IMG/VR virus record: IMGVR_UViG_3300024264_000034 | Span: 1 to 61,118 of that record | Length of the DNA: 61,118 bases | Origin: a virus | Reading direction: 5' to 3' (one strand) | Part shown: piece after piece, positions 4,586 through 43,921 of the stretch | Position numbering within the stretch: the stretch's first letter is position 1 | Layout: each line of letters opens with the position of its first letter | Notes under the pieces: generated by a model | Told to the model about the DNA's origin: nothing | Seen by the model: only the letters and a program-made list of their open reading frames with translations | Databases searched by the model: none | Program-made: the position numbers and the translations under genes

Positions 4586-4594
4586 ATTGTATTA

Positions 4595-7063: not shown

Positions 7064-7306
7064 TCAACCCTTCATGATATTTAAAAACTTATCAAATGAT
7101 ACTAGGTGCTTTTTCTTCTTTTTCTTTTTCTTCTTTTTAGTAGGCTCTAATAAATCACCGCTTCCGGTTTTTTGGCTACTAAAAGAATTCATAGAACCTG
7201 GGTCACCAGGAAGAGTAGCATTTCCCATACTCTGAACATTCATGTTAGGGTTGAGATTAACAGTACCTGCTTCGTTTTCTTTTATCTTTTTAGGTTGAGG
7301 TTGCAT
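7064..7306 (-). CDS. Small protein with ten-lysine run
   Basis: An 80-residue hypothetical protein. Residues 1-55 are polar and disordered-looking. Ten consecutive lysines follow, coded at 7109-7138 by mixed AAA and AAG codons. The C-terminus, HLVSFDKFLNIMKG, resembles the FxxF pattern of the capsid-targeting-like peptides in neighbouring proteins, but here it is at the wrong end of the protein. A DNA- or RNA-binding role is plausible from charge only. Its ATG lies next to the stop of the NMNAT-like gene, suggesting translational coupling. Confidence 0.6.
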   Translation of the reverse strand: MQPQPKKIKENEAGTVNLNPNMNVQSMGNATLPGDPGSMNSFSSQKTGSGDLLEPTKKKKKKKKKKHLVSFDKFLNIMKG

Positions 7307-7309
7307 TAT

Positions 7310-8878
7310 TTATTTAATGTTTTGTTTCATCCAACGAGTAATCCAGCCTTTAAGTTCTTTTGCTGCTGGTTTAATATCAGAAGGTTCTGTCATTGGTCCA
7401 TTTTTCCATCTGTCCCAATCAGATTGAATTATACCTAATGCATTTGCAATTTCTGGCATTAACTCAATATAATCTTCATTAATTGTAGATTCATATAATC
7501 CGATTATGCCTTCGTCATCAAGTTTTTTATATCCTTTTTTATCTAGCATAGTTAAAACATCATCTACCGTATCATATCCAAGTTCAGAGTCTAACTCATT
7601 GTTACCATCTCCCATAACAGTCCAATCATATATGAATTGCTCCCAGTCATCAGCAGTAACTTCATCTCTTTTATTATAAGTCTTCATAAACGCTTTAACT
7701 ATTGTCTTAGCATCGTTTTCATTAATTACAGATTCATTATAACTAACAATATCAGAATATTTAATTTCATGTTCTCCACCGTCTTGGTCTAATGCAAAAA
7801 TAGTTTTATCACCCCACATCGAATCATTATCATCATTACCATTGCCAAATGCATAAATGACATATTCTTCACCATTACCTAGTTGAATCATACCATCATC
7901 TTTTTTCATAGTCTTTATTAGACTCTTTTTATTAAATTTTGCTTCATTAATACTACTGAAGTCTGTTAGTGATTTTAAATTTTTCATATCTTTATTTTCT
8001 TTTATTGGTTGCATTATATCTTGTAACGGTTTATAAAACTTATGTATACTTTTTGGAGTCATTTTCTTAAAAGTCTTTTCATCATCTATCTTTAATGCAT
8101 TCCTAACTTTAGACGCCGAAATATTTTCTTCACCTCTTTTTATTTCAAAACCTTTAAAGCTTGGATCAACACCTAGATCATCTCTATATGATTGTTTATT
8201 AATCATAGCACCGTAAGATTTCTTTCTATCAGTACCATAACCCCACATCATAGGTTCGTATGTTGGTCTTGCTGCTGCAAACATTGTATCAATTGCACCA
8301 TTAGGAACTACAAAACTTGCTTCTAAAAATGGATATTGTTTTTTCATTTTAGCAAACATAGCTTGTTGCATATCTTCATCAAACGGTCTTTTCTCTGGAT
8401 CGGCTTTACCGCCTCTTACCATATAAACAACAACAGGTAAACCGTTTTCTTTATACATTTTTTCAAATACTTTAACATGACCTAATGTAAAAGGTTGAAA
8501 TCTACCAACAAACATATTTACTGGCTTTTTACCTTTTTCTTTATGGGGTACATTTAATGCTTCATTAAGTATTGTGGTTTTATTTTTTACTCTTAATCCA
8601 TAAGGAGAAAGGGAAAATGTTTTGATTCCTGCTTGATCTTCACTGATATTAAATAAAGTTTTATTTCTACCTAACCATCTTTTATTAGCTCTAAGCTCCG
8701 AAAGAATTTTAGACATTTCTTCTTCAGTAATATGACCGTCTGATATAGCATCTAAAATTACACTTCTGATTCTAGCATTTGTAGATACATTCTTAGCGGG
8801 GTATGCTTCTGTGTATCTTCTCTTTACTACTATCTTCTTTTCATTTAAGAAATTATTTAAATCATTTAAATTATCCAT
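7310..8878 (-). CDS. NMN-adenylyltransferase-like protein with processing-like sites
   Basis: A 522-residue protein. Residues 121-134 (FVGRFQPFTLGH) carry the (H/T)xGH nucleotide-binding signature in the GRFQPF context typical of NadM/NadR-type NMN adenylyltransferases. ISASKVR at 253-259 matches the second ATP-binding motif of that superfamily. The known family reaction is NMN + ATP to NAD+; another nucleotidyl transfer is possible. Outside this domain are an N-terminal peptide (DLNNFLNE), an embedded MKNLKSLTDFSSINE|A at 298-313, and further sites LNE106|A, INE387|N and INE468|D. These resemble T4 gp21 prohead-protease sites and fall between apparent domains. This suggests a packaged, processed protein; the packaging is inference. 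Confidence 0.7.
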   Translation of the reverse strand: MDNLNDLNNFLNEKKIVVKRRYTEAYPAKNVSTNARIRSVILDAISDGHITEEEMSKILSELRANKRWLGRNKTLFNISEDQAGIKTFSLSPYGLRVKNKTTILNEALNVPHKEKGKKPVNMFVGRFQPFTLGHVKVFEKMYKENGLPVVVYMVRGGKADPEKRPFDEDMQQAMFAKMKKQYPFLEASFVVPNGAIDTMFAAARPTYEPMMWGYGTDRKKSYGAMINKQSYRDDLGVDPSFKGFEIKRGEENISASKVRNALKIDDEKTFKKMTPKSIHKFYKPLQDIMQPIKENKDMKNLKSLTDFSSINEAKFNKKSLIKTMKKDDGMIQLGNGEEYVIYAFGNGNDDNDSMWGDKTIFALDQDGGEHEIKYSDIVSYNESVINENDAKTIVKAFMKTYNKRDEVTADDWEQFIYDWTVMGDGNNELDSELGYDTVDDVLTMLDKKGYKKLDDEGIIGLYESTINEDYIELMPEIANALGIIQSDWDRWKNGPMTEPSDIKPAAKELKGWITRWMKQNIK

Positions 8879-8881
8879 ACC

Positions 8882-11800
8882 TTATATATTTGATTCTTCA
8901 ACCTTTGTATTTTTAAACCTTGTTGGTACTGGATTAGATGGTCTTCCAGTTTTTGTAAATCCTATATTAAATTCAAATTTAAGTTTAGCTATAGAATTAA
9001 TACCATCAGTTGTATCTACAGTTGCCTTACCTGTCTTTTTATCAACACCCCAAACTTCATTTGTAAATAATTGTGATTTTACAGTTTCATTATAAGTGTT
9101 AGCATATGCTTTTCCTAAATCATAATAAGCTTCATATTTAGCTCTTAATTCATCTTCATCTAAATCTGGATCCTTTTTCTTTACATAAGCGATTGCGCTA
9201 TTAATAGATTTAGTTTTTCTCTCAACATATTCAGGATCTTCTAAATCAAAATCATACTTTTTAGCAAGATCCTTAATTTCATTAGCGGTCTTTTTAGTAT
9301 CTTCAGCTGTACCGTCAAAAATACCTGAATACATTTTAGTTTTATCTGACATTTTTGCAAGGTCATCTTTGGTTTCCTTTGGTGGAATTTTTTGACCTTT
9401 TGAATTAGTAAATTCTTTGTATTCACTTAACTGTGTTTTTTCACCAGACGCGGACGCGCCACCGGCACCTTTCTTAATTGACCTGGCTTCAACACTGGCC
9501 ATAATTAATTGTATCTTTTTCTGAATTTCTTCTGGTGAATCTTTTTCATAATCAATTTTTTCAGGTGAAATTGAGATAATGTCGCCTAGTGGATAATTAG
9601 AAGCAGCTGGCATATAAACATTATTTCCTTTATTTAATTCTCTCATATAAGAGACCATCTCTACTACATCAGCAGCACCAGTTTTCATATAAGGGTCTAA
9701 CATCATAGCACCAGTAGCAGACATTAACTTTTCATCATATTCTTTTGGGTCTTTAATATCTTTGAGTGATTTAAAATCATTCATTAATTTTTCTTGTGCT
9801 TTAGTAGGTTTCTTATCTCCAAATTGTTTCTTAAATCCGTCAGCTATAATATCAGCAGTGCCGTCTTTTAATTTAGTTCTATTTTCTGGTGTTGTTGGTG
9901 GAGTATCTGGAAATGCTGATAAGGTTTCCATTTCACCTTGGTCTTTAAAAGATTTTTGCGCTTGTTCTACAATGGCATTGTATTTGTTTAATGCAGCTTC
10001 TGCCTTTTCAGCTTCTTTTTTACTACCATATATCTTTTCTAATTTTTCAGTACTAGGTATTTCTTGCTTATCATAATTAACACCATCAAATGAAACTCCC
10101 TTTTCAGATACACCTACTTTAGTTTTAGATTTCTTATCACCGAATAATTTAGCACCAGTCATTTGCTTTTTACCAATACGATTAGCAGATTCTTTATCAA
10201 TATTATCTAAGCCATAATCTTTTGCCACATTAACTATTGAAGCAGGGGAGCTTTTATCACCTAACACTTTTCTATATAAACCAGTTTTTGCTGTATCTAC
10301 ATAAAACTTTGATCCGCTTTGATTTTTCTTAATAATTCCATCTTCTACTAATTCCCCAAATAATTTTTGTTTATCTTCATCAGATGCATTAGGATCATTT
10401 ATAGTTTCCATTGCGGTTAAAACTTTTTCTGCATTTTCTTTTTGGTCCGGATCTTTCACATCGTTTATCTGTTTCTGAATAACATCATTTATTCTAGAAA
10501 GACCTTTTAATTTTTTTGCATCTTCTTCAGGTTCTTTACCACCAACTATTTCTTTTGCCTTTTTATATGCTGGTGTATCTTTGTCATAACCAAGTGCAGA
10601 TGAAACTTTTACTTGTCTTCCTGTTTCTGGATTTTTAAATTTTTGATCTTCAGCATTAGCTTCTATAACTACTTTGCCTAAGTTAATAAATTTATTGTAA
10701 TTAAGAACTTTTTCTTCTACAACCAATTCTTCTAGATCTTTATGATTAACTTCTTCAGCTACTTTATTATTTAAGTATTCTCCGAATGTTGTAAATTCTT
10801 TAGAAGTTTCTTTATTAATGCTATCACTTATTTTAGAAACCATTTTATTAAAATCATCAATTACAGACGCTGTCATAACTGCACCTATTCTTTTAGGATT
10901 TCTTTTCTTTCTTAAAGATCCTAGCATTATTTTATATAAGTTCTTTAATGAATCTGATTTTTGTAAAATTTCTTTAGTCCTACTATTCTTAATTAAGTCT
11001 AAATTTACATCAAACTCAGGCCCTTTTGCAAAATCAGCTTTTTGGATATCTAATTTTTGTAAATCAGTTCCTCTCTTAGATGTATAATCATTAAATAAGT
11101 TATTCACTAATTCCACGTATCTTTCTTGTGGTGTGTTCGTTAGCAATTCACCTGCTCTTAAACCTCTTTCTTCTATAAAAGCTAAGATATCTAACAAAAG
11201 AATTTCATTAATATCCGCAGGAGCTCTTCTTAAATCTACAGGCTCCTTATCTTTCATTAACATTTGAGTATAAGGATCAATCATTTTAGCAGTAAACGTT
11301 TGATTAGTACCTGGTCTAAAAAATTTAAAGATAATTGAATCTATAGGTTTATTTAAATCATTTTGTAAAGTAGTTTTATCAATAGTAGGATTTAAACAAC
11401 CGATTAGATATTTAGCAAATGAGCCTGTACCAAACACTTCCATTTGGTCTTCTCTTGGTGTAGAAAGAAATTCTCTAATCTTTCTTTTTTGTTCTTCTTT
11501 TAAATATCCACTAAATATTGGAATAAGTGGAGTAACTTGAAACGCAGAAGCCCAGTCTCTTAATACCCTAGGATCTTCAATTACTTTAGCAATTTTACCT
11601 TTAGCATTTTTTACTTGGATATGAGTTAAGATTAAATTATTAGCAGGAAGATTATCATATTTAATAGCCCCTGGTTGGTTATGAACAAAATACTGAAAGC
11701 AAAATCTCCAATGATCTGGTAAATCTTGTATATGCCCTTCTGTTTGTTTAAGTATGTATTGGATTGCCGGTTCATAATACATCATTAGTGTTCGGTCCAC

Positions 11801-11971
11801 TATATTGATAGGCATTTTGCTATTGCCTTTAAAAAATTGTATTTGGTCTCCATGCTTCTCAAATGCAAAAGACGATCCGGATAGTTTTTCGGTCACTAGC
11901 AAATAATCTTTAAATAGATCATTTACGAATTGTTGCCCTACTTCTTTATATATGTTTGTTAACTCTTTCAT
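8882..11971 (-). CDS. Large protein with N-terminal ligase-like nucleotidyltransferase domain
   Basis: A 1029-residue protein. TEKLSGSS at 27-34 resembles motif I (KxxG, nucleophile K29) of covalent nucleotidyltransferases. WRFCFQYF (88-95) could be motif III, IDSIIFKFF (210-218) motif IV and TAKMIDP (227-233) motif V, in the right order and spacing for an ATP-dependent DNA/RNA ligase fold of about 240 residues. The remaining 780 residues are Lys/Glu/Asp-rich, largely helical or disordered, with no domain I recognise. The glutamate usual in motif IV is Asp, so activity is uncertain. It follows a terminator and its own promoter-like box and precedes the NMNAT-like gene by 3 nt. Confidence 0.6.
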   Translation of the reverse strand: MKELTNIYKEVGQQFVNDLFKDYLLVTEKLSGSSFAFEKHGDQIQFFKGNSKMPINIVDRTLMMYYEPAIQYILKQTEGHIQDLPDHWRFCFQYFVHNQPGAIKYDNLPANNLILTHIQVKNAKGKIAKVIEDPRVLRDWASAFQVTPLIPIFSGYLKEEQKRKIREFLSTPREDQMEVFGTGSFAKYLIGCLNPTIDKTTLQNDLNKPIDSIIFKFFRPGTNQTFTAKMIDPYTQMLMKDKEPVDLRRAPADINEILLLDILAFIEERGLRAGELLTNTPQERYVELVNNLFNDYTSKRGTDLQKLDIQKADFAKGPEFDVNLDLIKNSRTKEILQKSDSLKNLYKIMLGSLRKKRNPKRIGAVMTASVIDDFNKMVSKISDSINKETSKEFTTFGEYLNNKVAEEVNHKDLEELVVEEKVLNYNKFINLGKVVIEANAEDQKFKNPETGRQVKVSSALGYDKDTPAYKKAKEIVGGKEPEEDAKKLKGLSRINDVIQKQINDVKDPDQKENAEKVLTAMETINDPNASDEDKQKLFGELVEDGIIKKNQSGSKFYVDTAKTGLYRKVLGDKSSPASIVNVAKDYGLDNIDKESANRIGKKQMTGAKLFGDKKSKTKVGVSEKGVSFDGVNYDKQEIPSTEKLEKIYGSKKEAEKAEAALNKYNAIVEQAQKSFKDQGEMETLSAFPDTPPTTPENRTKLKDGTADIIADGFKKQFGDKKPTKAQEKLMNDFKSLKDIKDPKEYDEKLMSATGAMMLDPYMKTGAADVVEMVSYMRELNKGNNVYMPAASNYPLGDIISISPEKIDYEKDSPEEIQKKIQLIMASVEARSIKKGAGGASASGEKTQLSEYKEFTNSKGQKIPPKETKDDLAKMSDKTKMYSGIFDGTAEDTKKTANEIKDLAKKYDFDLEDPEYVERKTKSINSAIAYVKKKDPDLDEDELRAKYEAYYDLGKAYANTYNETVKSQLFTNEVWGVDKKTGKATVDTTDGINSIAKLKFEFNIGFTKTGRPSNPVPTRFKNTKVEESNI

Positions 11972-11990
11972 TATTAGTTTTTAGTTATAC

Positions 11991-12002
11991 TTATTATATA
12001 TT
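11991..12002 (-). promoter_or_regulatory. Late-promoter-like box (AATATATAATAA)
   Basis: AATATATAATAA on the minus strand, 19 nt upstream of the ATG at 11971 and just downstream of a terminator-like hairpin, which makes an independent transcription start here plausible. Confidence 0.5.
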
Positions 12003-12023
12003 AGAATTAGCAAATGTTTAAAA

Positions 12024-12052
12024 CAAAAAAGATGAGACATTATCTCACCTTT
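12024..12052 (-). terminator. Intrinsic terminator
   Basis: On the minus strand a 10-bp stem (AAAGGTGAGA / TCTCATCTTT, one G-T pair) closes a 5-nt loop and runs into a T-rich tract. It lies 40 nt past the stop at 12093 and before the promoter-like box of the next gene. Confidence 0.75.
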
Positions 12053-12092
12053 AACACACTTTTAATATTTTACAATAATTATTACATTATGA

Positions 12093-12416
12093 TTAAGATA
12101 CATCCATATAATCACCGTGGTCGCATGCTATACCCTTTCTAGTTAATTCTTTACAAATTTTATCTAGAGTACCATCTTCATAATACATAGGTAATGTTTC
12201 CTTTATCCCTAATGATGACAGTAGAGATTCAGTAGCATCATAACCTATCTTTGATCTTTTATTTACATTTGCAGTTTTCTTTACATCGTATAAAGAGGTT
12301 CCATAAAATCTACCTCGATCTGTATATACAAAGTTAATCCCTTTTATATTAAAAGGCTTGCCTGCTCTGTCAACATATCTACTACCTTCGTTTATAAATT
12401 CATTAAAGTTTTTCAT
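12093..12416 (-). CDS. Small protein with capsid-targeting-like N-terminus
   Basis: A 107-residue protein of unknown fold. It begins MKNFNEFINE|G, which closely resembles the ten-residue capsid-targeting sequence of T4 internal proteins (IPIII begins MKTYQEFIAE) and ends in a gp21-type cleavage context. The mature part would be a basic-to-neutral small protein (DRAGKPFNIKGINF...). It sits next to another small protein of this type, stop and start almost touching, and ends at a terminator. The likely role is an internal head protein; this is inference from the peptide. Confidence 0.65.
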   Translation of the reverse strand: MKNFNEFINEGSRYVDRAGKPFNIKGINFVYTDRGRFYGTSLYDVKKTANVNKRSKIGYDATESLLSSLGIKETLPMYYEDGTLDKICKELTRKGIACDHGDYMDVS

Positions 12417-12417
12417 A

Positions 12418-12786
12418 TTATGCTAATTTAGATTTACCATCCCAGACCTTTACAATATAATCTTTACCATCCTTTTCTAAATATCTTGGATCTTGTTTAG
12501 TAGGTCTCATTAATAATCCGTGCGATCTTTGGCCTCTCCCATGTTTACCTTTTCCCATATCATATCCTCTCTTTGCCATCCAATCAGATCCTCCAGAAAA
12601 GTAAGAAGCGAAATAACCTCGGTTTGATCTGTCATTAGGATCTAAACCTTTATGCTTAACTATTAAGTTTTGTAAATCTTTCCATTTAGATTTGCCATTC
12701 TTTTCAGCATAATCCAATACCATTTTTTTAATAGTGTCCATATCCTTTGATTCATTAAGGGATTCATAAGTATGTAAGTGTTCCAT
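12418..12786 (-). CDS. Small basic protein with processing-like N-terminus
   Basis: A 122-residue protein starting MEHLHTYESLNE|S, similar to the peptides of neighbouring genes. The rest is basic and rich in Gly, Lys and Arg (GKGKHGRGQRSHG near residue 80), as expected for something that contacts DNA. It is preceded by an 87-nt spacer with a TATATAAATA string and abuts the 107-aa gene. A DNA-associated internal head protein is plausible but unproven. Confidence 0.6.
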   Translation of the reverse strand: MEHLHTYESLNESKDMDTIKKMVLDYAEKNGKSKWKDLQNLIVKHKGLDPNDRSNRGYFASYFSGGSDWMAKRGYDMGKGKHGRGQRSHGLLMRPTKQDPRYLEKDGKDYIVKVWDGKSKLA

Positions 12787-12797
12787 ATTGTTGTTTA

Positions 12798-12812
12798 TTA
12801 TTTATATAAATA
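12798..12812 (-). promoter_or_regulatory. TTTATATAAATAATA promoter-like box
   Basis: Minus-strand TTTATATAAATAATA 12 nt before the ATG at 12786, within the 87-nt spacer. It contains TATAAATA, the T4 late-promoter core, exactly. No other structure was seen in the spacer. Confidence 0.5.
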
Positions 12813-12873
12813 TAATCAATTTTTTATTGTTGTGGCCATAATTCTCTAATTATTTTTAGAAAGTTATTAACAA

Positions 12874-14145
12874 TTATCTACCAAATTTAATTATACCCAT
12901 TAATTGATTAATTGCAGCAAAAGTACCAGTAAGCTTATAGATCTTACCTTTATATTTAAATACAATACCTTCCGTTGGAAATATTGATTCTATACCACCA
13001 ATACGACTTAGCCTTGCAAGCTCAGCTTCAACTTTTTTAACTTGTTCTACGCCGCCTGTCTTTTTAATCTTACTTGCTTGAGTTTCAATTTCTTTTCTTA
13101 GTCTTTGTGCTTCACCTGATGGATTAGCAGCTAAGAAGTTAGAAGCATTTTTCATAATGATAGAACCTAGCTCTAAAAACAGATCTTCAAATGGTCTAAT
13201 GTTTTCTTTATACTTTTTAGCAACATCTTCTTTATCAAACTTCTTAACTAGTGCAGCTTCATTAGGACCAACTTGTTTAGCTAAAGATCTCATGTTTAAA
13301 CTCTTCTTATCACCGTATGCCCATCTTCTAAGTAAACCTTCTTTAACGTCCTGAGATAGAGTTGGAAATTCTTTATCTATTAATTCTCTCCACCACATTT
13401 CATGATATCTTGAAACTTCATCACCGTCGTTTAAACCATATCTTTTTTCTAAAGCATTAACTTGATTAATAAACTTTTTCTTATTTGCAGTAAAATCTAA
13501 ATCTCTTTGTAATTGAATTACTTTAGGCGGTATAATTTTAAATGTTTTACCAATATCAGCCTTTACCTTTTGAAGTATATTTGTTATTTCTTTTGCAGGT
13601 TTATTATTTGTACCTATGATATTACCTTTACCATCTGTTTCTTTTATCCCATGAAATTGTATAACATCTCTATCATAATGAATAACGTTTGGATTCAATG
13701 AATAGATTAGTTCCATATTCATAAAATCTTTTCCATTCTTAAAATACTTTTCTTGATCTGCTGGTGAAAGTTTTCTTAATAGCTTATCTAAATCTCTAGC
13801 AGCCAAGATAAATGTTTCTTCAACTAGCTTTGATGCATGTCCTGTAAACATATCAATGGTACCATTAAGATCTAGAGGGTTTGCCATTTGACCTTTATTT
13901 CTAGCAAATTTTACTTTACCATCTTGGATAGTTACAAATAAGTTTTGCCCGTCAGTTTTTTCTGTAGGATCTTCTTCAAAGTTTAACTGTCCCCTAAGAC
14001 CAGCATCAACCATTGCTTTAAAATCACCAAAGGTTAACTCTTTATTATCAAATGGATGCTGCATATGACCAGCTGCACCACCTTCAAACAAAAATGGCTG
14101 ACTTTTGTCAGTCAGCCACTCTTCAAACAATTTTATATGTTTCAT
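12874..14145 (-). CDS. DNA/RNA ligase-like nucleotidyltransferase with capsid-targeting-like N-terminus
   Basis: A 423-residue protein. TEKTDGQN at 61-68 is a good motif I (KxDG, nucleophile K63). MNMELIY (E145) fits motif III, VIQFHG motif IIIa, EGIVFK (392-397) motif IV and KIYKL (401-405) motif V. This is the covalent nucleotidyltransferase core of ATP-dependent ligases and capping enzymes. About 180 mostly helical residues separate motifs IIIa and IV, which is unusual. The N-terminus MKHIKLFEEWL...PFLFE|G resembles T4 capsid-targeting/processing peptides. The substrate is unknown. It shares the TEK motif I context with the 1029-aa protein nearby, so the two may be paralogous. Confidence 0.7.
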   Translation of the reverse strand: MKHIKLFEEWLTDKSQPFLFEGGAAGHMQHPFDNKELTFGDFKAMVDAGLRGQLNFEEDPTEKTDGQNLFVTIQDGKVKFARNKGQMANPLDLNGTIDMFTGHASKLVEETFILAARDLDKLLRKLSPADQEKYFKNGKDFMNMELIYSLNPNVIHYDRDVIQFHGIKETDGKGNIIGTNNKPAKEITNILQKVKADIGKTFKIIPPKVIQLQRDLDFTANKKKFINQVNALEKRYGLNDGDEVSRYHEMWWRELIDKEFPTLSQDVKEGLLRRWAYGDKKSLNMRSLAKQVGPNEAALVKKFDKEDVAKKYKENIRPFEDLFLELGSIIMKNASNFLAANPSGEAQRLRKEIETQASKIKKTGGVEQVKKVEAELARLSRIGGIESIFPTEGIVFKYKGKIYKLTGTFAAINQLMGIIKFGR

Positions 14146-14159
14146 TTAGTTTGTTTTTA

Positions 14160-15701
14160 TTATGATCCCATAGTAGATTGTAAAGCTCCAACCATTGCTC
14201 CATAGTCTTCACCATACTTATCAATTAAACCATCAGCAGTTTCAGTTGCTTTAGTTTCATCAAAGTCATCTCCGAATGCATCTTTTAACATTTTCATTGC
14301 ATATTCTTTAAATTGATCAGCAGATTTAATTTCAGCTTCATTTACTTTACCTAATTTATTATTAGCAAGCTTTCTGAACTTTTCAGCAATTGAATCATCG
14401 GCTAATACTTCTTCCTCTTCTTTAACCAGTGGAATTTCGATACCGTCCTCAGATACATCGTTTGGTGAATCAGGAATTACTTCAGTAACCTTTTGATCTG
14501 GTGTAATTAATTCTTTACCTTTACCTTCAACATTTTTAGGTTTACCTCTTTCCATTGTATCTCCTGCAATACCTGCAGCAGTTTCTGGCCCGTCACCTTT
14601 AATTACAGGAATTGCAATTCCATCATCTCCGGCAATTTCATCAGCAATTTCATCACCTTCAACTTTAGTAATTACTTCGCCAATAGCTTCTTCTACAGAT
14701 TCTTCTTTCTTATCATCTTCATCTTCAAAATCTTCACCATCATGTGTTTTAGATTTGTCGCCTTTGTTTCCACCTAACACAACTCTGTCATAAGCCTCAT
14801 TTACAAAGGATGAGAAAGACATAATTTTAGATTCATTTTTATCTTCTTCTTCTTTGTCGTATTCAACATCTTTCTTTAGAGCATCTATTTCTTTATCATC
14901 AGATTTAACAGCCCCTTTATAATGGTCAGCTTTTTCTTTGTCATCTTCAGAATCAACTTTCTTATCTCCTTTATCTTCTAATTCATCACCTTCTTTTTCA
15001 TCTTCCATACCTTTGGCTTCTTCACCTTCAGCAAGAGGATCGGCAGAGGCTGCCATAGGAACAGCATAATCTTCAGGCTCCTCATCGTCATCATGATAAG
15101 AAATGTTTTTATTAATAGTTTCTTCTTTTTCTTTAATGAAATCTTCAAAGGCCATTATTCTTCTAGTAGCTTTTGGAGTTTCTTCTTCTTCTGAAGCAAC
15201 ATCAACACCGTCCTCATCCTCGACCTCATCGGCTTCAGCTGGAACTTCTGCTGTAATTTCTTGATCATCAGAAACTTCTTCACCTTCTTTATCTTCTAGA
15301 GATTTAGTAGCACCAATTTTATTTACTTCGTCTTCGATATCTTCAGCAGTATCTTCTTCAACTTCAGCAACTTCAGAATCAGTAGCAACAACTTCTTCAT
15401 CACCTTCTTTATCTTTGGTACCTTCTAGTGATTTAGCTTTACCTTTGACTTTCATTTCATCTTCAATATCTTCAGCTCTGTCTTCTTCAACACCATCCTC
15501 AGATATATCATTACTTTTAGCAAATGTCTTAGACATTGCTTCGAGTTTAGAAAGAAGATCTTTCTCCTTCTTTAACTCTTCTATACTGTCAAAACCAATC
15601 TTTTTGATCAATTCATCAACAGCTTCTTTTGTTACTTTTGCAGACTCATTGATCGGTTGATCTTTTGCAGTCATAGCAGAAAACTTTTTGATTGACTTCA
15701 T
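14160..15701 (-). CDS. Highly acidic repeat protein with several capsid-targeting-like peptides
   Basis: A 513-residue, very Glu/Asp/Lys-rich protein. It starts MKSIKKFSAM...QPINE|S. Comparable peptides recur internally: MAFEDFIKE at about 183-191 and MSFSSFVNE|A at about 294-303, plus VNE|A near 455. Residues about 73-105 and 117-145 are an imperfect duplication (both contain AEDIEDE and KSLE). The C-terminal 55 residues (from SADQFKEYAMKML) look like a compact helical domain. Charge and peptides fit a prohead-core or internal scaffold-type protein, but I cannot assign it to gp22 or gp67. It is the first gene of the internal-protein cluster. Confidence 0.6.
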   Translation of the reverse strand: MKSIKKFSAMTAKDQPINESAKVTKEAVDELIKKIGFDSIEELKKEKDLLSKLEAMSKTFAKSNDISEDGVEEDRAEDIEDEMKVKGKAKSLEGTKDKEGDEEVVATDSEVAEVEEDTAEDIEDEVNKIGATKSLEDKEGEEVSDDQEITAEVPAEADEVEDEDGVDVASEEEETPKATRRIMAFEDFIKEKEETINKNISYHDDDEEPEDYAVPMAASADPLAEGEEAKGMEDEKEGDELEDKGDKKVDSEDDKEKADHYKGAVKSDDKEIDALKKDVEYDKEEEDKNESKIMSFSSFVNEAYDRVVLGGNKGDKSKTHDGEDFEDEDDKKEESVEEAIGEVITKVEGDEIADEIAGDDGIAIPVIKGDGPETAAGIAGDTMERGKPKNVEGKGKELITPDQKVTEVIPDSPNDVSEDGIEIPLVKEEEEVLADDSIAEKFRKLANNKLGKVNEAEIKSADQFKEYAMKMLKDAFGDDFDETKATETADGLIDKYGEDYGAMVGALQSTMGS

Positions 15702-15719
15702 TTTAGTTATTTTATTTTT

Positions 15720-15730
15720 TTTATATATCC
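15720..15730 (-). promoter_or_regulatory. Late-promoter-like box (GATATATAAA)
   Basis: Minus-strand GGATATATAAA about 18 nt before the ATG at 15701, in the 55-nt gap after uvsW; it probably starts transcription of the internal-protein cluster. Confidence 0.5.
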
Positions 15731-15756
15731 ATGTCTTAGTGAAAAGATATTCTATA

Positions 15757-17262
15757 TTAGAATCTTATGTTCTGAACTTCAAATGGAAACTTTTCTTCTT
15801 TATATATTGTTCGCCTAGCAATACCGTGGCGGTAGATATAGTTAACCCAATCATGGTCTTCGGTCTTATATCTAAAATCATCTATAAAATCATAGATTTT
15901 AACTACGTCCTTAGATGAATGCTTTCTTAATCCTCTACCAATACTTTGTCTAATAATTACCTCAGACTTAAAGCTTTCAGTAAAAAAGATATTATGTATG
16001 TTTTTAATAGAAATACCAGTAGAAAAAGTACCATAAGATGCTACAATAATAACATCATCATTTTTTTCCATTCTACTTTTAAATTCTTCTCTTATATCTA
16101 CATTAACAGATCCGTCTACATAATAAACCTTTTTATCAGTTATATGTCTTAATTTATTATATAGTTTTTCACCGTATGCAATCTTATGGAATAATACTAA
16201 TGAATTTGATGTAGATTTTTTAATTACTTGGCAAACAAAATCTAACCTCTTTTCGCTTTGATTTATAAAGTTTTGTTCTAATCCAAATAATTTTTGCCTA
16301 TCTTGTGGATTTTTAGATAAAAAAGAAAAAGATTCTTTTTGTGCATCTGTTGCATAATCCATATGAAGTTGCATAACTTTACAGCTGGCTATATAGCCTT
16401 CCTCTTGTAATTGATTTGCTTTAACTTGTGTAACCAAAGGTCCCATAGCAGACATTAAGCTTAATCTATTAACAGTTCCTTTTTTAGGAATAGTTCCACT
16501 TAAACCAAATCTAAAATCACAATGCCAACATTTATCCATAATTTTTTGAATAGAGTTAGCTTTTGCTTTATGTGTTTCATCTACAAAAACAGCATCAAAT
16601 TGACTAAAATATTCCTCGTCTTTTTTAACTAAGGATTGATATGTCCCAATTACTAAATTAGAACTTTTTCTTATTTTTACCCCAGCATATATTTGTTGTG
16701 TCTTTAAAGGAATTCCTACTTTATTATATTCATCAAAATCACCTGTTGCTTGTAATACTAAATTTACATTAGGAACTATCATTAAGATTTTTTTCTTTCC
16801 TAATTTATCCATAAGATATGCAACGACCATAAAAGATATTAAGGTTTTACCCGCGGATGTTGCAAGTTCAGCCAAACATCTTCTATACTTTAAAATTTTA
16901 AATGCTGCATCTATTTGATATTCCCTAGGTTTAAAATCAGGTTGAGTTTTAAAAATTTCAGTTACCCATAATCTGAATTCATCTTCTTTAATTTCAGTAT
17001 CAAAAATATTAGTTATATTATTAAGAGAACACTGAAAATCGTAATCCTTACATATATCTAATATTTCTTTCCATAAACCAGCAGGGATCTTATTTCTTTT
17101 TACAAATGATACATTACCATCCCACACTCTCTTTTTAACCAAAGGGTGAAAGCGCCAACCTTCAATCTTTTTAGTTAAACTACTTTTTAGTTGTTCATAC
17201 TCTAATTCAGTACAAGCATCAATAACCAAAAACTTTTTATTTTCCGAGAGTGATAATTCCAT
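15757..17262 (-). CDS. uvsW: UvsW-like recombination helicase
   Basis: A 501-residue SF2 helicase, the length of T4 UvsW. Residues 1-95 form a UvsW-type N-terminal domain (GWRFHPLVKKRVWDG). Walker A is ATSAGKT (134-140), the DExH box is DETH (228-231) and motif III is SGT (255-257). The C-terminal RecA-like lobe ends with the arginine-finger motif QSIGRGLRK. The known role is unwinding recombination intermediates and R-loops and switching replication from origin- to recombination-dependent mode. Its start overlaps the uvsY stop by one base (TAATG), a translational coupling seen with its functional partner. Confidence 0.93.
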   Translation of the reverse strand: MELSLSENKKFLVIDACTELEYEQLKSSLTKKIEGWRFHPLVKKRVWDGNVSFVKRNKIPAGLWKEILDICKDYDFQCSLNNITNIFDTEIKEDEFRLWVTEIFKTQPDFKPREYQIDAAFKILKYRRCLAELATSAGKTLISFMVVAYLMDKLGKKKILMIVPNVNLVLQATGDFDEYNKVGIPLKTQQIYAGVKIRKSSNLVIGTYQSLVKKDEEYFSQFDAVFVDETHKAKANSIQKIMDKCWHCDFRFGLSGTIPKKGTVNRLSLMSAMGPLVTQVKANQLQEEGYIASCKVMQLHMDYATDAQKESFSFLSKNPQDRQKLFGLEQNFINQSEKRLDFVCQVIKKSTSNSLVLFHKIAYGEKLYNKLRHITDKKVYYVDGSVNVDIREEFKSRMEKNDDVIIVASYGTFSTGISIKNIHNIFFTESFKSEVIIRQSIGRGLRKHSSKDVVKIYDFIDDFRYKTEDHDWVNYIYRHGIARRTIYKEEKFPFEVQNIRF

Positions 17263-17711
17263 TAGTATTCTTTATCGTCTAAGCTAATTCTATTTCTTAT
17301 TGCAAATGCTAAATTATCACAAGTCTTTATACATTCTTGGTAATAATCCATATGAGATTGTAACATTTCCATTTGTGTTCTTAAATGAGATAAGTCAGCT
17401 TTAATAAAAGCAACCTTTTCTCCGCTTGTTAATTTAACATCATAGTCAATTGAATATTCCCTATACTTAATTTTATAGTATCTGTCATATGCACCTTGTC
17501 TTTTTTGTTTCGTTGTTTTAAAGTCTGTAATTTTATCTAATAAAATTTGTCTATAAGATAACATATTTACTTGACACTCAGCCAAATTACGAACTTCTTT
17601 TAATAAACTAACTAAATGACTTATCTTTATTTTCCAATCATCTCTATCTTTAGCTAATCTTTTTGCTAATTCCTCATTAGCCTCTCCTGTTGCAGTGTCA
17701 TTATATTCCAT
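17262..17711 (-). CDS. uvsY: UvsY-like recombination mediator
   Basis: A 149-residue helical protein, close to T4 UvsY in length. The central block (RYYKIKYREYSIDYDVKLT) and C-terminal helices (MDYYQECIKTCDNLAFAIRNRI) parallel the DYYSG and C-terminal helix region of UvsY. The known role is loading UvsX recombinase on gp32-coated ssDNA as a hexamer. It lies directly upstream of uvsW with a one-base overlap, the order conserved in T4-like phages. No uvsX lies in this window. Assignment rests on pattern plus context. Confidence 0.8.
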   Translation of the reverse strand: MEYNDTATGEANEELAKRLAKDRDDWKIKISHLVSLLKEVRNLAECQVNMLSYRQILLDKITDFKTTKQKRQGAYDRYYKIKYREYSIDYDVKLTSGEKVAFIKADLSHLRTQMEMLQSHMDYYQECIKTCDNLAFAIRNRISLDDKEY

Positions 17712-17936
17712 TTAAAATATACCTTTATCTTTATTAATCTTTTTATAACCCTTTACTTTAGGCTGAAACTTCTTTTTAGGTACTTCTGTAATAGAAAAAT
17801 TAGTTTTTACATCAGCTAATTCTGATTTATTAAAATTAGAAAATAACTTTAATTTTTTATTACTGTTTTCTAAATCTTTATAAAAGTCATCTACTTCTTC
17901 GCTCACAAAATTATTATAATTTTTTAAATTCATCAT
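17712..17936 (-). CDS. Small hypothetical protein
   Basis: A 74-residue lysine-rich protein starting MMNLKNYNNFVSE|E, which weakly resembles the capsid-targeting-like peptides of the later cluster. Two ATGs are adjacent; the first overlaps the primase stop (ATGA-type overlap). It is followed without a gap by uvsY. It has no recognised domain. It may be an internal head protein or a replication accessory protein. Confidence 0.55.
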   Translation of the reverse strand: MMNLKNYNNFVSEEVDDFYKDLENSNKKLKLFSNFNKSELADVKTNFSITEVPKKKFQPKVKGYKKINKDKGIF

Positions 17937-19006
17937 ATGTAAATAATATCTAATGAATCTTTTGTAAAATATTTATCAAGGTCTCCTAAGCACCCGGATC
18001 GATTAGTATACTCCCATTTTACTAAATCATTTAAATCTTTTACTTTTCTTTTAGGAATGTCAAAATCCTTTAACAACTTATCCCACATAAATACAGTTTG
18101 GCCGCCTTTTAATTTTTCTATCATTCTGCTTTTACCTTCCAAATCATTGTCAAAGAAATATCTTGCAGTAGGTATTTCATTAAATTCAATTATTTGTTTT
18201 TTAACTCCAGTTAATCCTATAGAATTATTCATAAACATTGCATCTATAGGACCTTCAAAAATAGAAAAGTCCCGTGACATATCAACTGTTAATATTCCAA
18301 ATAACATTGATATTTTATTTAAGTTATCCAGCTCTTCTTCTGTAACACCTAGCTTTAATTTTAACCTATCATATATTCTTTCAATATTCCACGTTTTATA
18401 TTTAGGACCACCATTACCACCTAAGTCTCTAGTTTGGAATCCTAATATTTTACCCTCAGGAGTTAAATTAAAAACATATAGTTCTCTACGTCTAGGATCA
18501 AATCCAAACCTTTCTGTCTTATGATGGAGTAATCTACTTTTTAAATAAGGGTACGCTTGGTATGTTAACGTGTTAATTGGATATACATTAAAACCTAATG
18601 CTATTTCATCAAAAGTTAATGCTAATTCTTTTGCTTTATCAAAAAGATAAAAATCTAGATTTTCACCTAATGAAAAATGTTTTCGGTTTTCTTTAATATA
18701 ATTAATAACATTAACTCTATCATCACCTTCAAAATTTTCATTATGTTCTGCCAAGAATACATCTAAAGATGCATGAGCAGAGCAATTATAACAATGAAAG
18801 AATAAATCATTCCAATAAATATTACCTCTCTTTTTTCTAGGAGTATCATGCGAATCACCACAATAAGGGCAGGCAAAATTTAGCCTACCTTTACTCTCCA
18901 GTATTCTTCTTTTCTCTGGATGAGTATGGTTAGTATGAAGAACTCGGACCACCTTATCAATGATCCGAGCTTTCATTTCAGAAGATATTATTACTTCTTC
19001 TGCCAT
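17933..19006 (-). CDS. 61: DNA primase, gp61-like
   Basis: A 357-residue primase. The zinc ribbon is C46-x2-C49 and C72-x2-C75 (CPYCGD, CYNC). The Toprim catalytic residues appear as FEGPID (E251) and FDND (D286, D288). This is the DnaG/gp61 layout without a helicase domain. It makes RNA primers for lagging-strand synthesis with a separate gp41-type helicase, which is not in the window. It lies 5 nt downstream of gene 32 and overlaps the next gene by 4 bases, so it is probably co-transcribed with the recombination genes. Confidence 0.9.
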   Translation of the reverse strand: MAEEVIISSEMKARIIDKVVRVLHTNHTHPEKRRILESKGRLNFACPYCGDSHDTPRKKRGNIYWNDLFFHCYNCSAHASLDVFLAEHNENFEGDDRVNVINYIKENRKHFSLGENLDFYLFDKAKELALTFDEIALGFNVYPINTLTYQAYPYLKSRLLHHKTERFGFDPRRRELYVFNLTPEGKILGFQTRDLGGNGGPKYKTWNIERIYDRLKLKLGVTEEELDNLNKISMLFGILTVDMSRDFSIFEGPIDAMFMNNSIGLTGVKKQIIEFNEIPTARYFFDNDLEGKSRMIEKLKGGQTVFMWDKLLKDFDIPKRKVKDLNDLVKWEYTNRSGCLGDLDKYFTKDSLDIIYI

Positions 19007-19011
19007 ACTTA

Positions 19012-19938
19012 TTAAAGATCTAAACCATTAATGAAATCATCAAAGTCATCTTTCTTTTCTTCACCTGCTGCAACAGGTTCAGCTTTAGGAGTTTCCTTTG
19101 TTTCAGTTGTTGCCTTCGTGGCAGCAGCTTCAGTAACTTTAGTATTTACTGGTGCTGGTTTTGATCTAGTGATATTTTGAATTGAATCACCAGGGGATGC
19201 GAATTGAGATAATACATTCATTACCTTTCCTCGTATTACATCATCCCATGCCTTGTAACCCCAAGATGTTAAATCCGGAGCATCCTTTAATAAATCCAAT
19301 ATTGCTTTACGACTAGCATCATCATCAGATACTGCTTCACCATTGATTGTCATTGGAGATTTATTACCGTGGAATTTACTTGAATCATAATTAGGGAATC
19401 CACCTTTCTTTGAAATTACTAATTCAAAATTCTTTCCTTCAAACGGATCAAATACTTGAGTAGGTTCATCAAATTGAGGATTAAGTTCTTCATCAATTTT
19501 TGTTTTGATTTTATAACCAAACTTCATGATTTTAACTTGTCCTTCAAGGTCTCTATTTTGTGGATCCTTTATGATTTGTACCAATGCATAGAATACTTCT
19601 CTACGCTTTAAACCTTCTGACATCTTTTTATCTACAGCAGATTCAGAGTTTCTTAGTTTAAAGAACATATCCTGTACAGGACATTTTTCTCCAACCGTTG
19701 AAGGGGAATCAGCGAAAAAGCCGTTTCCTTCTCTGTCTTCTAACCAATAGACATACTTTCTTTCAAATGGTTTTCTTGGGTTTTTTGCATTAGGTAGAAA
19801 CCTAATTAAAGAACGGTAAGTTCCGTCCTGTCCTTGATCTGGTTTAGGTGAATAAAGATCACTCCCTGCGGAAGATGGTCTTTCACCAGTGTCTAAATCT
19901 TTTACACTTACGTTAAAAATGTCAAATTCGTTTGCCAT
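19012..19938 (-). CDS. 32: Single-stranded DNA-binding protein gp32
   Basis: A 308-residue protein. The core carries the conserved YRSLIRFLPN, KYVYWLED and FFADSPSTVGEKCPVQDMFF blocks of T4-like gp32. A low-complexity Ala/Thr/Lys/Glu linker (about 255-295) leads to the acidic C-terminal tail DDFDDFINGLDL, which recruits replication proteins in this family. Only one cysteine (C86) is present, so the zinc site of T4 gp32 (His plus three Cys) is absent. The known role is coating ssDNA in replication and recombination. Its 163-nt leader carries a hairpin and repeats that suggest autoregulation. Confidence 0.92.
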   Translation of the reverse strand: MANEFDIFNVSVKDLDTGERPSSAGSDLYSPKPDQGQDGTYRSLIRFLPNAKNPRKPFERKYVYWLEDREGNGFFADSPSTVGEKCPVQDMFFKLRNSESAVDKKMSEGLKRREVFYALVQIIKDPQNRDLEGQVKIMKFGYKIKTKIDEELNPQFDEPTQVFDPFEGKNFELVISKKGGFPNYDSSKFHGNKSPMTINGEAVSDDDASRKAILDLLKDAPDLTSWGYKAWDDVIRGKVMNVLSQFASPGDSIQNITRSKPAPVNTKVTEAAATKATTETKETPKAEPVAAGEEKKDDFDDFINGLDL

Positions 19939-19943
19939 GTTAA

Positions 19944-20042
19944 TTGCCTTTTTTTGTTATTAATTTATGTTATGATAACAAACCTCCATATCTAAACGCC
20001 TTTTAATTTATTGCCTATTTACTTCGCCTTGTTATCGCCTTT
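19944..20042 (-). promoter_or_regulatory. Five AGGC repeats in gene 32 leader (candidate autogenous operator)
   Basis: In the minus-strand leader the motif (A)AGGC(G/A) occurs five times, at plus-strand GCCT positions 19946, 19998, 20013, 20026 and 20037. The last copy is directly upstream of the ATG. Four are spaced 11-15 nt apart in otherwise A/T-rich, unstructured RNA. T4 gp32 represses its own translation by cooperative binding to such a leader. The operator role here is inference. Confidence 0.5.
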
Positions 20043-20043
20043 T

Positions 20044-20070
20044 AAAAGTACCAAACTTTTTAGTACCTTT
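20044..20070 (-). promoter_or_regulatory. 5'-end hairpin of gene 32 mRNA
   Basis: Minus-strand AAAGGTACT, AAA, loop AAG, TTT, GGTACTTTT can fold into a 12-bp stem with two G-U pairs. It starts a few nt after the promoter-like box, so it would sit at the mRNA 5' end, comparable in position to the pseudoknot nucleation site of T4 gene 32 mRNA. A weak terminator for the GroES gene is the alternative. Confidence 0.5.
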
Positions 20071-20072
20071 GT

Positions 20073-20084
20073 TTATTATATATC
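20073..20084 (-). promoter_or_regulatory. Late-promoter-like box of gene 32
   Basis: Minus-strand GATATATAATAA, unusually far (135 nt) from its ATG at 19938; it implies a long 5' leader that contains the hairpin and the AGGC repeats. Confidence 0.5.
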
Positions 20085-20101
20085 TCACAAGATAGTTTGT
20101 T

Positions 20102-20386
20102 TCAGACTATTTGTACATTTTTATCTATTATTGCAGTAATATCTCTTTCTCTTAAACTTAATATAATTTCTTTATTGTATTTAATTTCCATGCCTGCTAA
20201 ATCATGAAAAAGAACTTTCATTCCTATTTTAAAATCAGTATCTTTAACAGATTCCCCTATTCCTATTATAGTACCTGCATAAGGTGGAGCAAACTGCCCG
20301 TCTTTTTTTAATAAAATTATACTACCTTTTTTGTCAGGTTGCTCATCCTGTTTTAAAAATATTCTATTTCCTAAAGGTTTTATCAT
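20102..20386 (-). CDS. GroES-like cochaperonin
   Basis: A 94-residue protein of the GroES family. It starts MIKPLGNRIFLKQDE, continues with a mobile-loop region (DKKGSIILLKKDG) and YAGTIIGIGE, then FKIGMKVLFHDLAGMEIKYN and a final strand ending TAIID. These match GroES block by block. In T4 the analogous gp31 replaces GroES to fold the major capsid protein with host GroEL; here the same role is inferred. This one is more GroES-like in sequence than gp31. It lies upstream of gene 32. Confidence 0.85.
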   Translation of the reverse strand: MIKPLGNRIFLKQDEQPDKKGSIILLKKDGQFAPPYAGTIIGIGESVKDTDFKIGMKVLFHDLAGMEIKYNKEIILSLRERDITAIIDKNVQIV

Positions 20387-20471
20387 TTTATTTTAATTTT
20401 TTTTATAGAAAGCTGAAACAAAATTACTAAGTTGCAATATAATTTTTAACTATTCAATGTTAGAAAAGTAT

Positions 20472-21131
20472 CTAGTTACTAGCTTTTAAGGCTTTAAGTA
20501 TAAAGTAGGCATCAACGATGTCATCAATGGGTTTAGGTATTTTTGTGCTGAAGTCTTTTCCTTGGCACCATTTCCAAAGTTTAGTGCTCCTTAAGCTCTT
20601 ATCATTAAGAACATCATTTTGAAATGCTTCAGCCATATAATGTTTATTAGCATTTCCTTTGCCTGCTAACTTTTTTACATGAGACGGTTGATACACTGAT
20701 AAATTTTCTATAGAGTACTTATCTATTAATGCCTTTCTTAAAAATGTATTATATTGAATGATATCTATAAATGAGTTACCTTTAGAACCATAAGAGAATC
20801 CTTCTAGCCCAACCGCTACTTTATCACCTTCAAATAGTGTAGAAAAAATTCCAACCATTAGTGAACTAATATTACCAGCATCTTCTAACTTCTGCCTCTC
20901 TCTCGGTAAAAATTCTTTACTTGTAACCTCTCTATTATATGGAAATCCTAATAGAGCATTACTATCTATTAATTCTTTATGCACACTAAACGCTTTAGGT
21001 ATTTTTCTACCTTCGTCGTCCCATATACGATTCCCGTAATTAAAAAAAGTTATAAAGTGATATTGCCCATCATTAGTTTCAACGCATGCGCCTGGGCTAT
21101 TTAAAGAAAAATCAATTCCTATTCGAATCAT
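20472..21131 (-). CDS. RuvC-like Holliday junction resolvase
   Basis: A 219-residue RNase H-fold nuclease. GIDFSLNSPG supplies D7, VGLEGFSYG supplies E110 and PIDDIVDAYF supplies D203/D204 and D207, the D-E-D-D order of RuvC. The segment QPSHVKKLAGKGNANKHYM matches the conserved RuvC helix region before the last aspartates. The expected role is cutting branched recombination or packaging intermediates, a job done by gp49 in T4. Its neighbours are gp32, primase and UvsY/UvsW, consistent with recombination-dependent replication. Confidence 0.8.
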   Translation of the reverse strand: MIRIGIDFSLNSPGACVETNDGQYHFITFFNYGNRIWDDEGRKIPKAFSVHKELIDSNALLGFPYNREVTSKEFLPRERQKLEDAGNISSLMVGIFSTLFEGDKVAVGLEGFSYGSKGNSFIDIIQYNTFLRKALIDKYSIENLSVYQPSHVKKLAGKGNANKHYMAEAFQNDVLNDKSLRSTKLWKWCQGKDFSTKIPKPIDDIVDAYFILKALKASN

Positions 21132-21136
21132 TATAA

Positions 21137-21493
21137 TTATATTCTCTTACCGATGACTGCACCTAATGCAGCACCAACAAGACGTGAGGTTAATAAATCA
21201 TAAAGAGCACCTTTAGTAACACCTAATACTTTAGCTACTGCTTTACCTATTGTTTTCCCTAATGCAAATCCAGTTAATCCACCAAATATACTTCCTAGGA
21301 TACCTTCATTAATTATTTCTTCAACACAATCTTCTAAGTTCTTACCTTCTTTTTGTGCTTCTAATATTCTATCAACTGTTGAATCTATTGCAGCTTCCTG
21401 TTCTTCAGTAAGGTCATGAGCTTCATTCATCAGCAGCATTACGTCAGTTGCCTCATTATGATTTTCGGTTAAGTAATCTTTAAAGGTTTTCAT
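21137..21493 (-). CDS. Glycine-zipper protein with capsid-targeting-like N-terminus
   Basis: A 118-residue protein in two parts. Residues 1-63 are acidic and helical, beginning MKTFKDYLTE, with candidate gp21-type sites LMNE24|A and IINE63|G. Residues 64-118 are hydrophobic with regular small-residue spacing (GILGSIFGGLTGFALGK, LVGAALGAVIGK), a glycine-zipper pattern typical of membrane-inserting or pore-forming helices. Cleavage at E63 would free exactly the hydrophobic part. A head-packaged, membrane-active peptide delivered on infection is an attractive inference. A structural core peptide is the alternative. Confidence 0.65.
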   Translation of the reverse strand: MKTFKDYLTENHNEATDVMLLMNEAHDLTEEQEAAIDSTVDRILEAQKEGKNLEDCVEEIINEGILGSIFGGLTGFALGKTIGKAVAKVLGVTKGALYDLLTSRLVGAALGAVIGKRI

Positions 21494-43644: not shown

Positions 43645-43651
43645 TGTGCTT

Positions 43652-43921
43652 TTAATTTATTTTTTGATACCATTTAGGAACTGCAAAATTAAAATAAATT
43701 CTTAGGTATTTAACTCTATTAATGTATAAAACCATTATAGGATTTAAGTAATCTTTTAGAAATGTTTTTAAATGTATATTTCTAAACATATACTTAGACA
43801 TACTGTTTTGTAATAATACTTTAGAATAATCAAATCCTGTATTTTTTAATTCCCAACCTTCTTCATATGTAGCTCTATATAAACTAGGGAATCCTGTTCT
43901 ATTATTTTTTACTGTTGCCAT
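43652..43921 (-). CDS. Small hypothetical protein between gp6 and gp7-like genes
   Basis: An 89-residue basic, aromatic-rich protein (YRATYEEGWELKN, YLRIYFNFAVPKWYQKIN). Its start sits 1 nt after the gp6 stop and its stop is 7 nt before the GTG of the wedge gene, so it is part of the wedge operon. It is unrecognised. A small wedge component or assembly factor is the simplest idea. Confidence 0.6.
   Translation of the reverse strand: MATVKNNRTGFPSLYRATYEEGWELKNTGFDYSKVLLQNSMSKYMFRNIHLKTFLKDYLNPIMVLYINRVKYLRIYFNFAVPKWYQKIN

Follow-up and report, generated by a model that had tools for sequence, protein, structure and literature searches.

A candidate T4-type capsid-targeting tag on diverse predicted cargo, including enzymes and putative polyproteins, in a group of mostly marine T4-like phages

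The IMG/VR virus record IMGVR_UViG_3300024264_000034 is a linear fragment of 61,118 bases with 33% G+C, and the whole record is referred to here as the window. An initial annotation noticed that seven of its proteins, encoded between positions 7,310 and 21,493, begin with peptides resembling the leader of the internal proteins of phage T4. This raises the question of whether otherwise unrelated proteins, among them ligase-like and NMNAT-like enzymes, carry a common address for the phage head. In T4, the internal proteins IPI, IPII and IPIII travel in the head, are injected and inhibit the type IV restriction enzymes GmrSD, and the leader alone is what they have in common (PMC12373910, PMC3012670). 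T4 also packages foreign proteins fused to such a capsid-targeting sequence (PMC3012670). We consider it likely that the window belongs to an enlarged version of the T4 capsid-targeting system, in which enzymes and effector polyproteins cut by the prohead protease gp21 are among the cargo.

A held-out profile of the N-terminal tag

All seven peptides are present in the window. Since enrichment with a simple peptide pattern was weaker (3-10 observed vs 1-5 expected per genome), we used a held-out profile in its place. A position-specific scoring matrix (PSSM) of the tag was built from 15 clear cases in the relatives G002 to G004 only, and the window and G001, a 181,663-base relative with 96% identity to the window in the ligase-like protein, served as the test set. 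The genome-wide search called for by the initial annotation yields scores of at least 12 bits at 12 N-termini and at 0 of 1332 internal methionines. Scores of at least 8 bits occur at 22 N-termini, compared with a mean of 1.4 and a maximum of 5 in 200 shuffles of the N-termini; in the window, 0 of 318 internal methionines reach this score. The comparison thus places the tag at protein starts. Two of the peptides, at 17936 and 8878, had been called weaker, a distinction that does not survive, as they are equal to the rest (Table 1). The N-termini at 12786 (MEHLHTYESLNE↓S; the arrow marks a predicted cut) and 15701 (MKSIKKFS..PINE↓S) score below 8 bits, and relatives keep both patterns. The tag consensus is MKH(I/L/V)KLFE(E/Q)F(L/I/V)NE↓A, with degenerate forms besides and a length of about 10-20 residues, and the profile marks roughly 6-13 genes per long genome of the lineage.

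The likeness to T4 that had been proposed is borne out. When applied unchanged to 49 kb of T4, the marine-derived profile ranks IPIII, IPII and IPI first to third of 158 open reading frames (ORFs). Of 97 ORFs in 50 kb of the Bacteroides phage crAss001, whose head is of another type, 0 reach 12 bits, and in the P-SSM2 region MKSFKQFLEE↓A scores 21 bits. Proteins of the two systems share an N-terminal MK..(F/Y)..F..E peptide, a cleavage-type Glu followed by Ala (FIAE↓A in T4), unrelated cargo behind one leader and an encoded gp21. They differ in that the cargo here includes enzymes and multi-cassette polyproteins, in that a nearly invariant 13-residue tag extends over about 50 families, and in that packaging and injection are here predicted.

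Spread, cargo and protease of the tagged proteins

At least 120 IMG/VR stretches contain a degenerate DNA pattern of the tag (MKHxKxFE(E/Q)FxNE), and its carriers form a large group of mostly marine T4-like phages. Its codons in permuted order give 0 matches in IMG/VR, and the tag itself gives 0 matches in 257 Gb of bacterial and archaeal genomes. When the search was run without ATG and with Ala after the Glu, ATG stood directly before the tag in 60 of 60 cases. After removal of 13 residues, 80 distinct tagged proteins fall into 50 unrelated cargo families, so that tag and cargo are modular by comparison. Those in G001 to G004 include ATP-grasp, AAA_33/Zeta-like kinase, GNAT-like and SnoaL/CaMKII_AD-like domains. 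The residue after the tag Glu is A in 60 cases, S in 24, K in 23, G in 12, E in 11, D in 9 and N in 7.

The third codon positions of the fixed tag residues differ by 0.680, compared with 0.683 expected from codon usage, and are therefore saturated, and the 60 bases upstream of tagged genes are dissimilar (34.5% identity). Given that synonymous sites are saturated while the residues are fixed, the tag peptide itself is under selection, kept at the protein level and not recently copied.

The gp21-type protease that had been expected elsewhere in the genome is not found in the window, where no capsid, portal or protease gene was found; this negative is uninformative because the record is a fragment. 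The expectation holds in the relatives. Peptidase_S77 (gp21) scores above cut-off in G001 to G004, all four of these, the longest relatives examined, encode both gp21 and gp23, and among 14 further contigs that bear the tag and are at least 100 kb long, 13 encode gp21. In G001 to G004, gp21 lies in frames of 573-820 amino acids (aa), fused to a long gp22-like scaffold part, whereas genes 21 and 22 are separate in T4. Contigs G012, G014 and G015 also have a second, shorter Peptidase_S77 frame of 132 aa. By position, we propose that the gp23 precursor leader ends in ..HNLNE↓SVYN in G001 or ..HKLYE↓DANM in G004. In G004, the interval from gp20 to gp21, occupied in T4 by gp67 and gp68, encodes a tagged acidic protein, MKYVKLFEQFIKE, and MAKLKTYSEFLNE↓G lies directly after gp23 in G001. 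The marks of capsid-targeting-sequence cargo that can be read from sequence are thus found here: the N-terminal peptide, the (I/L)xE site behind the tag, the shared leader, and gp21 and gp23 in relatives.

Cassette joints and the individual tagged proteins

The 522-aa NMNAT-like protein reads, in order, MDNLNDLNNFLNE↓; the KRRYTE module ending ..TTILNE↓; the nucleotidyltransferase and MKNLKSLTDFSSINE↓; a cassette ending ..YNESVINE↓; a cassette ending ..YESTINE↓; and a last cassette. The nucleotidyltransferase module matches PF01467 (29.9 bits vs a cut-off of 21) and TIGR00125 above cut-off, its GRFQPFTLGH signature is invariant, and Foldseek gives PPAT/NMNAT folds. The protein falls below the NMNAT equivalog cut-offs and is assigned to the superfamily, not to a substrate. 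F10 and E13 of the leader are invariant, as is E106↓A107 in 27 sequences, and the linker before the latter site varies in length.

Several of the putative cargo polyproteins gain, lose and exchange cassettes at (I/L/V)NE↓ sites. Relatives differ in just this way here: L003 lacks the NDAKT cassette, L059 has it and lacks the AKFNK cassette, L024 and L036 lack both, and L027 has another. The last cassette stands behind xNE in 15 of 15 listed contexts. About ten different second modules occur behind the KRRYTE module, almost always with an xNE-like site at the join, and L254 (956 aa) has two tandem copies of one module, each starting after GEDVNE↓. Across 295 tagged representatives, 13.3% of homology breakpoints lie within 8 residues of (I/L/V/M/F/Y)NE, whereas positions drawn at random do so in 4.5 ± 1.4% of cases, with 8.7% as the highest value of 300 trials; the control motifs EN, ND, KE/DE and NK/ND show no enrichment. 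Cassette borders therefore coincide with cut-type sites more often than chance would give. In the structure model of the window protein, a third of the chain has a predicted local distance difference test score (pLDDT) below 50, and each of the five (F/I/L/V)NE sites falls within such a segment. Because the model is weak overall, we take this as mild support; it is also too weak for domain-by-domain claims, and therefore the superfamily of the second module alone is used. The predicted polyprotein architecture, which goes beyond the initial annotation, is the more novel feature of the system, and in the openly licensed literature we found no account of polyproteins that gp21 cuts in this lineage.

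The 423-aa ligase-like protein has the predicted mature start GGAAGHMxHPFD. E21↓G22G23 is invariant, and the linker before this site varies in sequence and length. Its KTDG, EGxVF and KLTG motifs are also invariant, and nucleotidyltransferase motifs I (KxDG), IV (EGxV) and V (K) are found at the invariant K63-T-D-G66, E392-G393-x-V395 and K404. Fold comparison is moderate, below the level of a clear match (Foldseek best E 0.03, VIA best Z 7.3), and nearly all of the top VIA rows are RNA/DNA ligases. Microcystis phage Mel-JY01 encodes both the nucleotidyltransferase and the ligase-like protein in a single ORF, whose junction IIAE↓GGLGGHMNHPF has the position of the L(F/L)E↓GGAAGHM site of the separate ligase-like proteins; the 462-kb uncultured phage LR756500 has LILE↓GGSYGHLNHPF at the matching site. 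Cyanophage S-RIM12 encodes a comparable pair as neighbors, a cytidylyltransferase with the leader MKKFSAFLTE↓A and a neighbor with KWDG. We infer that the pair may act on nucleotide or RNA ends or on nicotinamide adenine dinucleotide (NAD) early in infection.

The 118-aa glycine-zipper protein has two further sites inside it (..LMNE↓A and ..IINE↓G), which the initial annotation did not contain; the leader and both sites are kept in relatives, and distant homologues occur in LR756500 and in Prevotella Lak megaphages (MK250015-MK250029). Its predicted mature 55-aa zipper could be a membrane-active or a head-core peptide. In relatives of the 513-aa acidic protein the leader is kept as MK(S/P)IKKFS..(I/L)(N/T)E↓S, the acidic middle varies in length and about 60 C-terminal aa are conserved, and homologues have a GTRGQFG cassette behind an IIE↓ site. 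This protein is probably core/scaffold-like or else acidic cargo. Since the former protein is conserved to the Lak megaphages and the latter resembles a core or scaffold protein, both may be head-core components rather than effectors. The earlier reading of the tagged proteins as cargo is supported by the many unrelated proteins that carry the tag, and is corrected for these two.

Relatives of the 74-aa protein have the leaders MIKTYEQFINE↓S and MIEIKKYESFVNE, those of the 122-aa protein keep its leader pattern (MDYLHTFESLNE↓S, MKHMHSYDSLNE↓S and MEHLHNYESLNE↓A), and the cargo of the 107-aa protein stands in one relative behind another leader, MKYVKPLNE↓A. The N-terminal 436 aa of the neighboring 1029-aa protein are conserved in relatives, and domains related to its N-terminus are fused to an NMNAT domain in relatives. 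Next to the polyprotein gene, an 80-aa ORF copies the N-terminal arm of gp23, with 73% identity over 44 residues to G001 gp23 residues 44-87. In its relatives (e.g. L052 16358-16750) the arm copy stands behind a DUF3008-like domain, just under the Pfam cut-off, which the window copy lacks. We speculate that such an arm copy may serve as a further means of holding a protein inside the head.

Nearly all window genes lie on the minus strand, and baseplate genes are present besides those in Table 1. The closest records to the window are other IMG/VR contigs, and a relative of the ligase-like protein is encoded in 322 of 326 candidate stretches. A DNA-level search of annotated phages with the window region gave no match, nor did one G001 cassette region searched in annotated phages. 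Since G004 gp23 is nearest, among annotated phages, to LR756500 and the Prevotella Lak megaphages, the host of the lineage may be of a Bacteroidota type. Elsewhere in the window, 1733-4585 encodes a tail/fibre-type protein with collagen-like GPQGPQ repeats, and similar repeats, read differently, may account for the ORF at 60804-61073. Positions 58764-60071 encode repeated surface-protein-type motifs that match phrog_17273 and phrog_22899 (unknown function) and are possibly receptor-binding.

Table 1. Positions of the features discussed, in the window unless a relative is named
Feature	Coordinates	Strand	Remarks
118-aa glycine-zipper protein	21137..21493	-	MKTFKDYLTE↓..LMNE↓A..EEIINE↓G, then glycine-zipper segment; PSSM 12.2 bits
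its capsid-targeting-like peptide	21464-21493	-	
its glycine-zipper segment	about 21140-21304	-	residues 64-118
74-aa protein	17712..17936	-	N-terminal peptide MMNLKNYNNFVSE (17898-17936); PSSM 10.4 bits
513-aa highly acidic protein	14160..15701	-	leader MKSIKKFSAMTAKDQPINE↓S (15645-15701)
423-aa ligase-like nucleotidyltransferase	12874..14145	-	leader MKHIKLFEEWLTDKSQPFLFE↓GG (14083-14145); PSSM 29.6 bits
122-aa protein	12418..12786	-	leader MEHLHTYESLNE↓S (12751-12786)
107-aa protein	12093..12416	-	leader MKNFNEFINE↓G (12387-12416); PSSM 20.9 bits
1029-aa protein	8882..11971	-	ligase-like motif EKLSGSS
522-aa putative polyprotein	7310..8878	-	leader MDNLNDLNNFLNE↓K (8840-8878), KRRYTE module, NMNAT-like nucleotidyltransferase, three further cassettes; PSSM 8.2 bits
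predicted cleavage after Glu106	8561..8563	-	TTILNE↓ALNVPHK, KRRYTE/NMNAT junction; homology breakpoint exactly here; pLDDT <50
internal leader-like peptide, residues 298-312	7943..7987	-	MKNLKSLTDFSSINE↓A; MKNLKSL conserved in relatives; pLDDT <50
predicted cleavage after Glu387	7718..7720	-	YNESVINE↓N, cassette boundary; NDAKT cassette present or absent in relatives here
predicted cleavage after Glu468	7475..7477	-	YESTINE↓D, cassette boundary; last cassette starts right after xNE
80-aa ORF with gp23 arm copy	7064..7306	-	NLNPNMNVQSMGNATLPGDPGSMNSF..TGSGD, then poly-Lys, C-terminal HLVSFDKFLNIMKG (SFDKFL peptide)
Cpn10 gene	20102-20386		
gp32-like gene	19012-19938		T4-type replication
primase gene	17933-19006		T4-type replication
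UvsY-like gene	17262-17711		T4-type replication
helicase gene	15757-17262		T4-type replication
gp21 fused in frame to gp22-like part	G001 18182-19903; G002 147160-149622; G003 87606-89921; G004 93458-95458		
tagged cargo of recognisable enzyme or domain types	G001 95079-95831; G002 41838-43798; G002 45799-46143; G004 4466-5410; G004 19114-20076		

Proposed mechanism and its rivals

In the mechanism that we propose, the tag at the protein start would dock the precursor on the prohead core, and a gp21-type prohead protease encoded elsewhere in the genome would cut after the Glu of (I/L/V/F)xE and so remove the tag, after which the mature protein would remain in the head alongside the DNA. Cassettes in one reading frame would be joined by the same kind of cut site, so that one tag could carry several domains or enzymes, and the NMNAT-like nucleotidyltransferase and four other modules would be separated during head maturation. 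The cargo would most likely enter the cell with the DNA and act before phage gene expression, with the NMNAT-like and ligase-like enzymes acting on NAD or nucleic-acid ends, plausibly against host defence. The tag very probably targets proteins to the head and, nearly as probably, the tagged precursors are cleaved at the predicted sites; delivery of at least some of the enzymes into the host is a reasonable expectation.

Known systems resemble this one in part. Polyvalent proteins (Iyer et al. 2017, PMC5512222) combine several predicted effector domains per polypeptide, are shuffled between phages and are predicted to be carried in the head. The proteins described here likewise have multiple distinct domains shuffled between phages, most of them uncharacterised. 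Processing of polyvalent proteins is attributed to zincin-like peptidases within the protein, whereas here the sites are of the prohead-protease type and stand behind a T4-type tag; a Pfam scan of the polyproteins found no zincin-like peptidase, and most cassettes lack a match to any family. T4 Alt and other head-packaged enzymes act on NAD metabolism or host proteins (PMC9503650). Such head carriage is predicted here for different cargo, a nucleotidyltransferase of the NMNAT/cytidylyltransferase superfamily and a ligase-like enzyme, and no ADP-ribosyltransferase was found among the window proteins scanned. In giant phages such as SPN3US, many head proteins are cut by the prohead protease and sent into the cell, and in the abstracts of these reports (PMC7411985, PMC10052503) we found no mention of a short T4-type tag common to the N-termini, nor of polyproteins made up of cassettes; the group described here, by comparison, is of the gp23/T4-type lineage.

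Several points weigh against this interpretation. In roughly one strict tag out of five, the next residue is K or E and not A, S or G. Cut-type site density is 2.0 per 1000 aa in tagged proteins vs 0.8, a modest rise based on 8 sites, and a minority of homology breakpoints lie at xNE sites, not all of them independent because the proteins are related. The AlphaFold model of the NMNAT-like protein has a mean pLDDT of 57. The 1029-aa neighbor has no clear tag, the window, being a fragment, has neither gp21 nor gp23, and three of the 14 further tag-bearing contigs are near-identical in length and probably one phage. T4-type late promoters are not recognisable: TATAAATA has 35 copies on the non-coding strand of G001 and 19 on the coding strand, so that it is not informative, although one copy lies 20 bases before the 12786 start. 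Finally, we infer from sequence comparison the presence of these proteins in virions, their docking on the core, their actual cleavage, their injection and their biochemical role.

The tagged proteins might instead be prohead core or internal structural parts, cut like T4 gp67, gp68 and gp22 and serving in assembly or DNA condensation rather than as delivered effectors. The core-like 513-aa protein, the conservation of the 118-aa protein to the Lak megaphages and the tagged proteins between gp20 and gp21 and right after gp23 would all fit such a role. We nevertheless regard it as unlikely for the set as a whole, given that most tagged proteins are variable and accessory, that about 50 unrelated families have the tag, and that many of them are enzymes or enzyme-like (ATP-grasp, AAA_33/Zeta-like kinase, GNAT, NMNAT and ligase-like), which scaffolding would not need. 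That several tagged window genes lie among the replication genes for gp32, primase, UvsY and helicase and near the Cpn10 gene might suggest that the N-terminal peptide docks another partner, such as a chaperonin, the replisome or the transcription or degradation machinery, and that the xNE motifs are not protease sites. This is far less probable, as the profile retrieves exactly the T4 internal proteins, the conserved Glu is mostly followed by A, S or G, and cassette boundaries fall at the same kind of site. Many genes per genome are nearly alike in the translation of their first 13 codons, as would be seen if the shared 5' ends were functionless relics of recombination or recent gene conversion. 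We rejected this explanation, whose probability is negligible: saturated synonymous sites contradict it, third positions having diverged as far as codon usage predicts although the residues stayed fixed, and the upstream bases are dissimilar.

We therefore return to head targeting and cleavage as the preferred reading of the tag. In its broadest form, toward which we lean, this would be combinatorial effector delivery that is widespread in T4-like phages, with a nearly invariant 13-residue head-address tag on about 50 or more unrelated cargoes, prohead-protease sites as cassette joints, and effector polyproteins that are put together by shuffling and whose parts the phage's head-maturation protease releases before injection. 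The phage proteins that enter the cell with the DNA are mostly unknown outside a few models, and a tag profile that ranks the T4 internal proteins first offers a genome-wide prediction of proteins that accompany the DNA. If this reading is true, it would provide a long list of candidates for early effectors and for proteins that counter defence, it would account for the modularity of so many proteins in this lineage, and polyproteins cut by the prohead protease would be an added way to deliver several effectors behind one tag.

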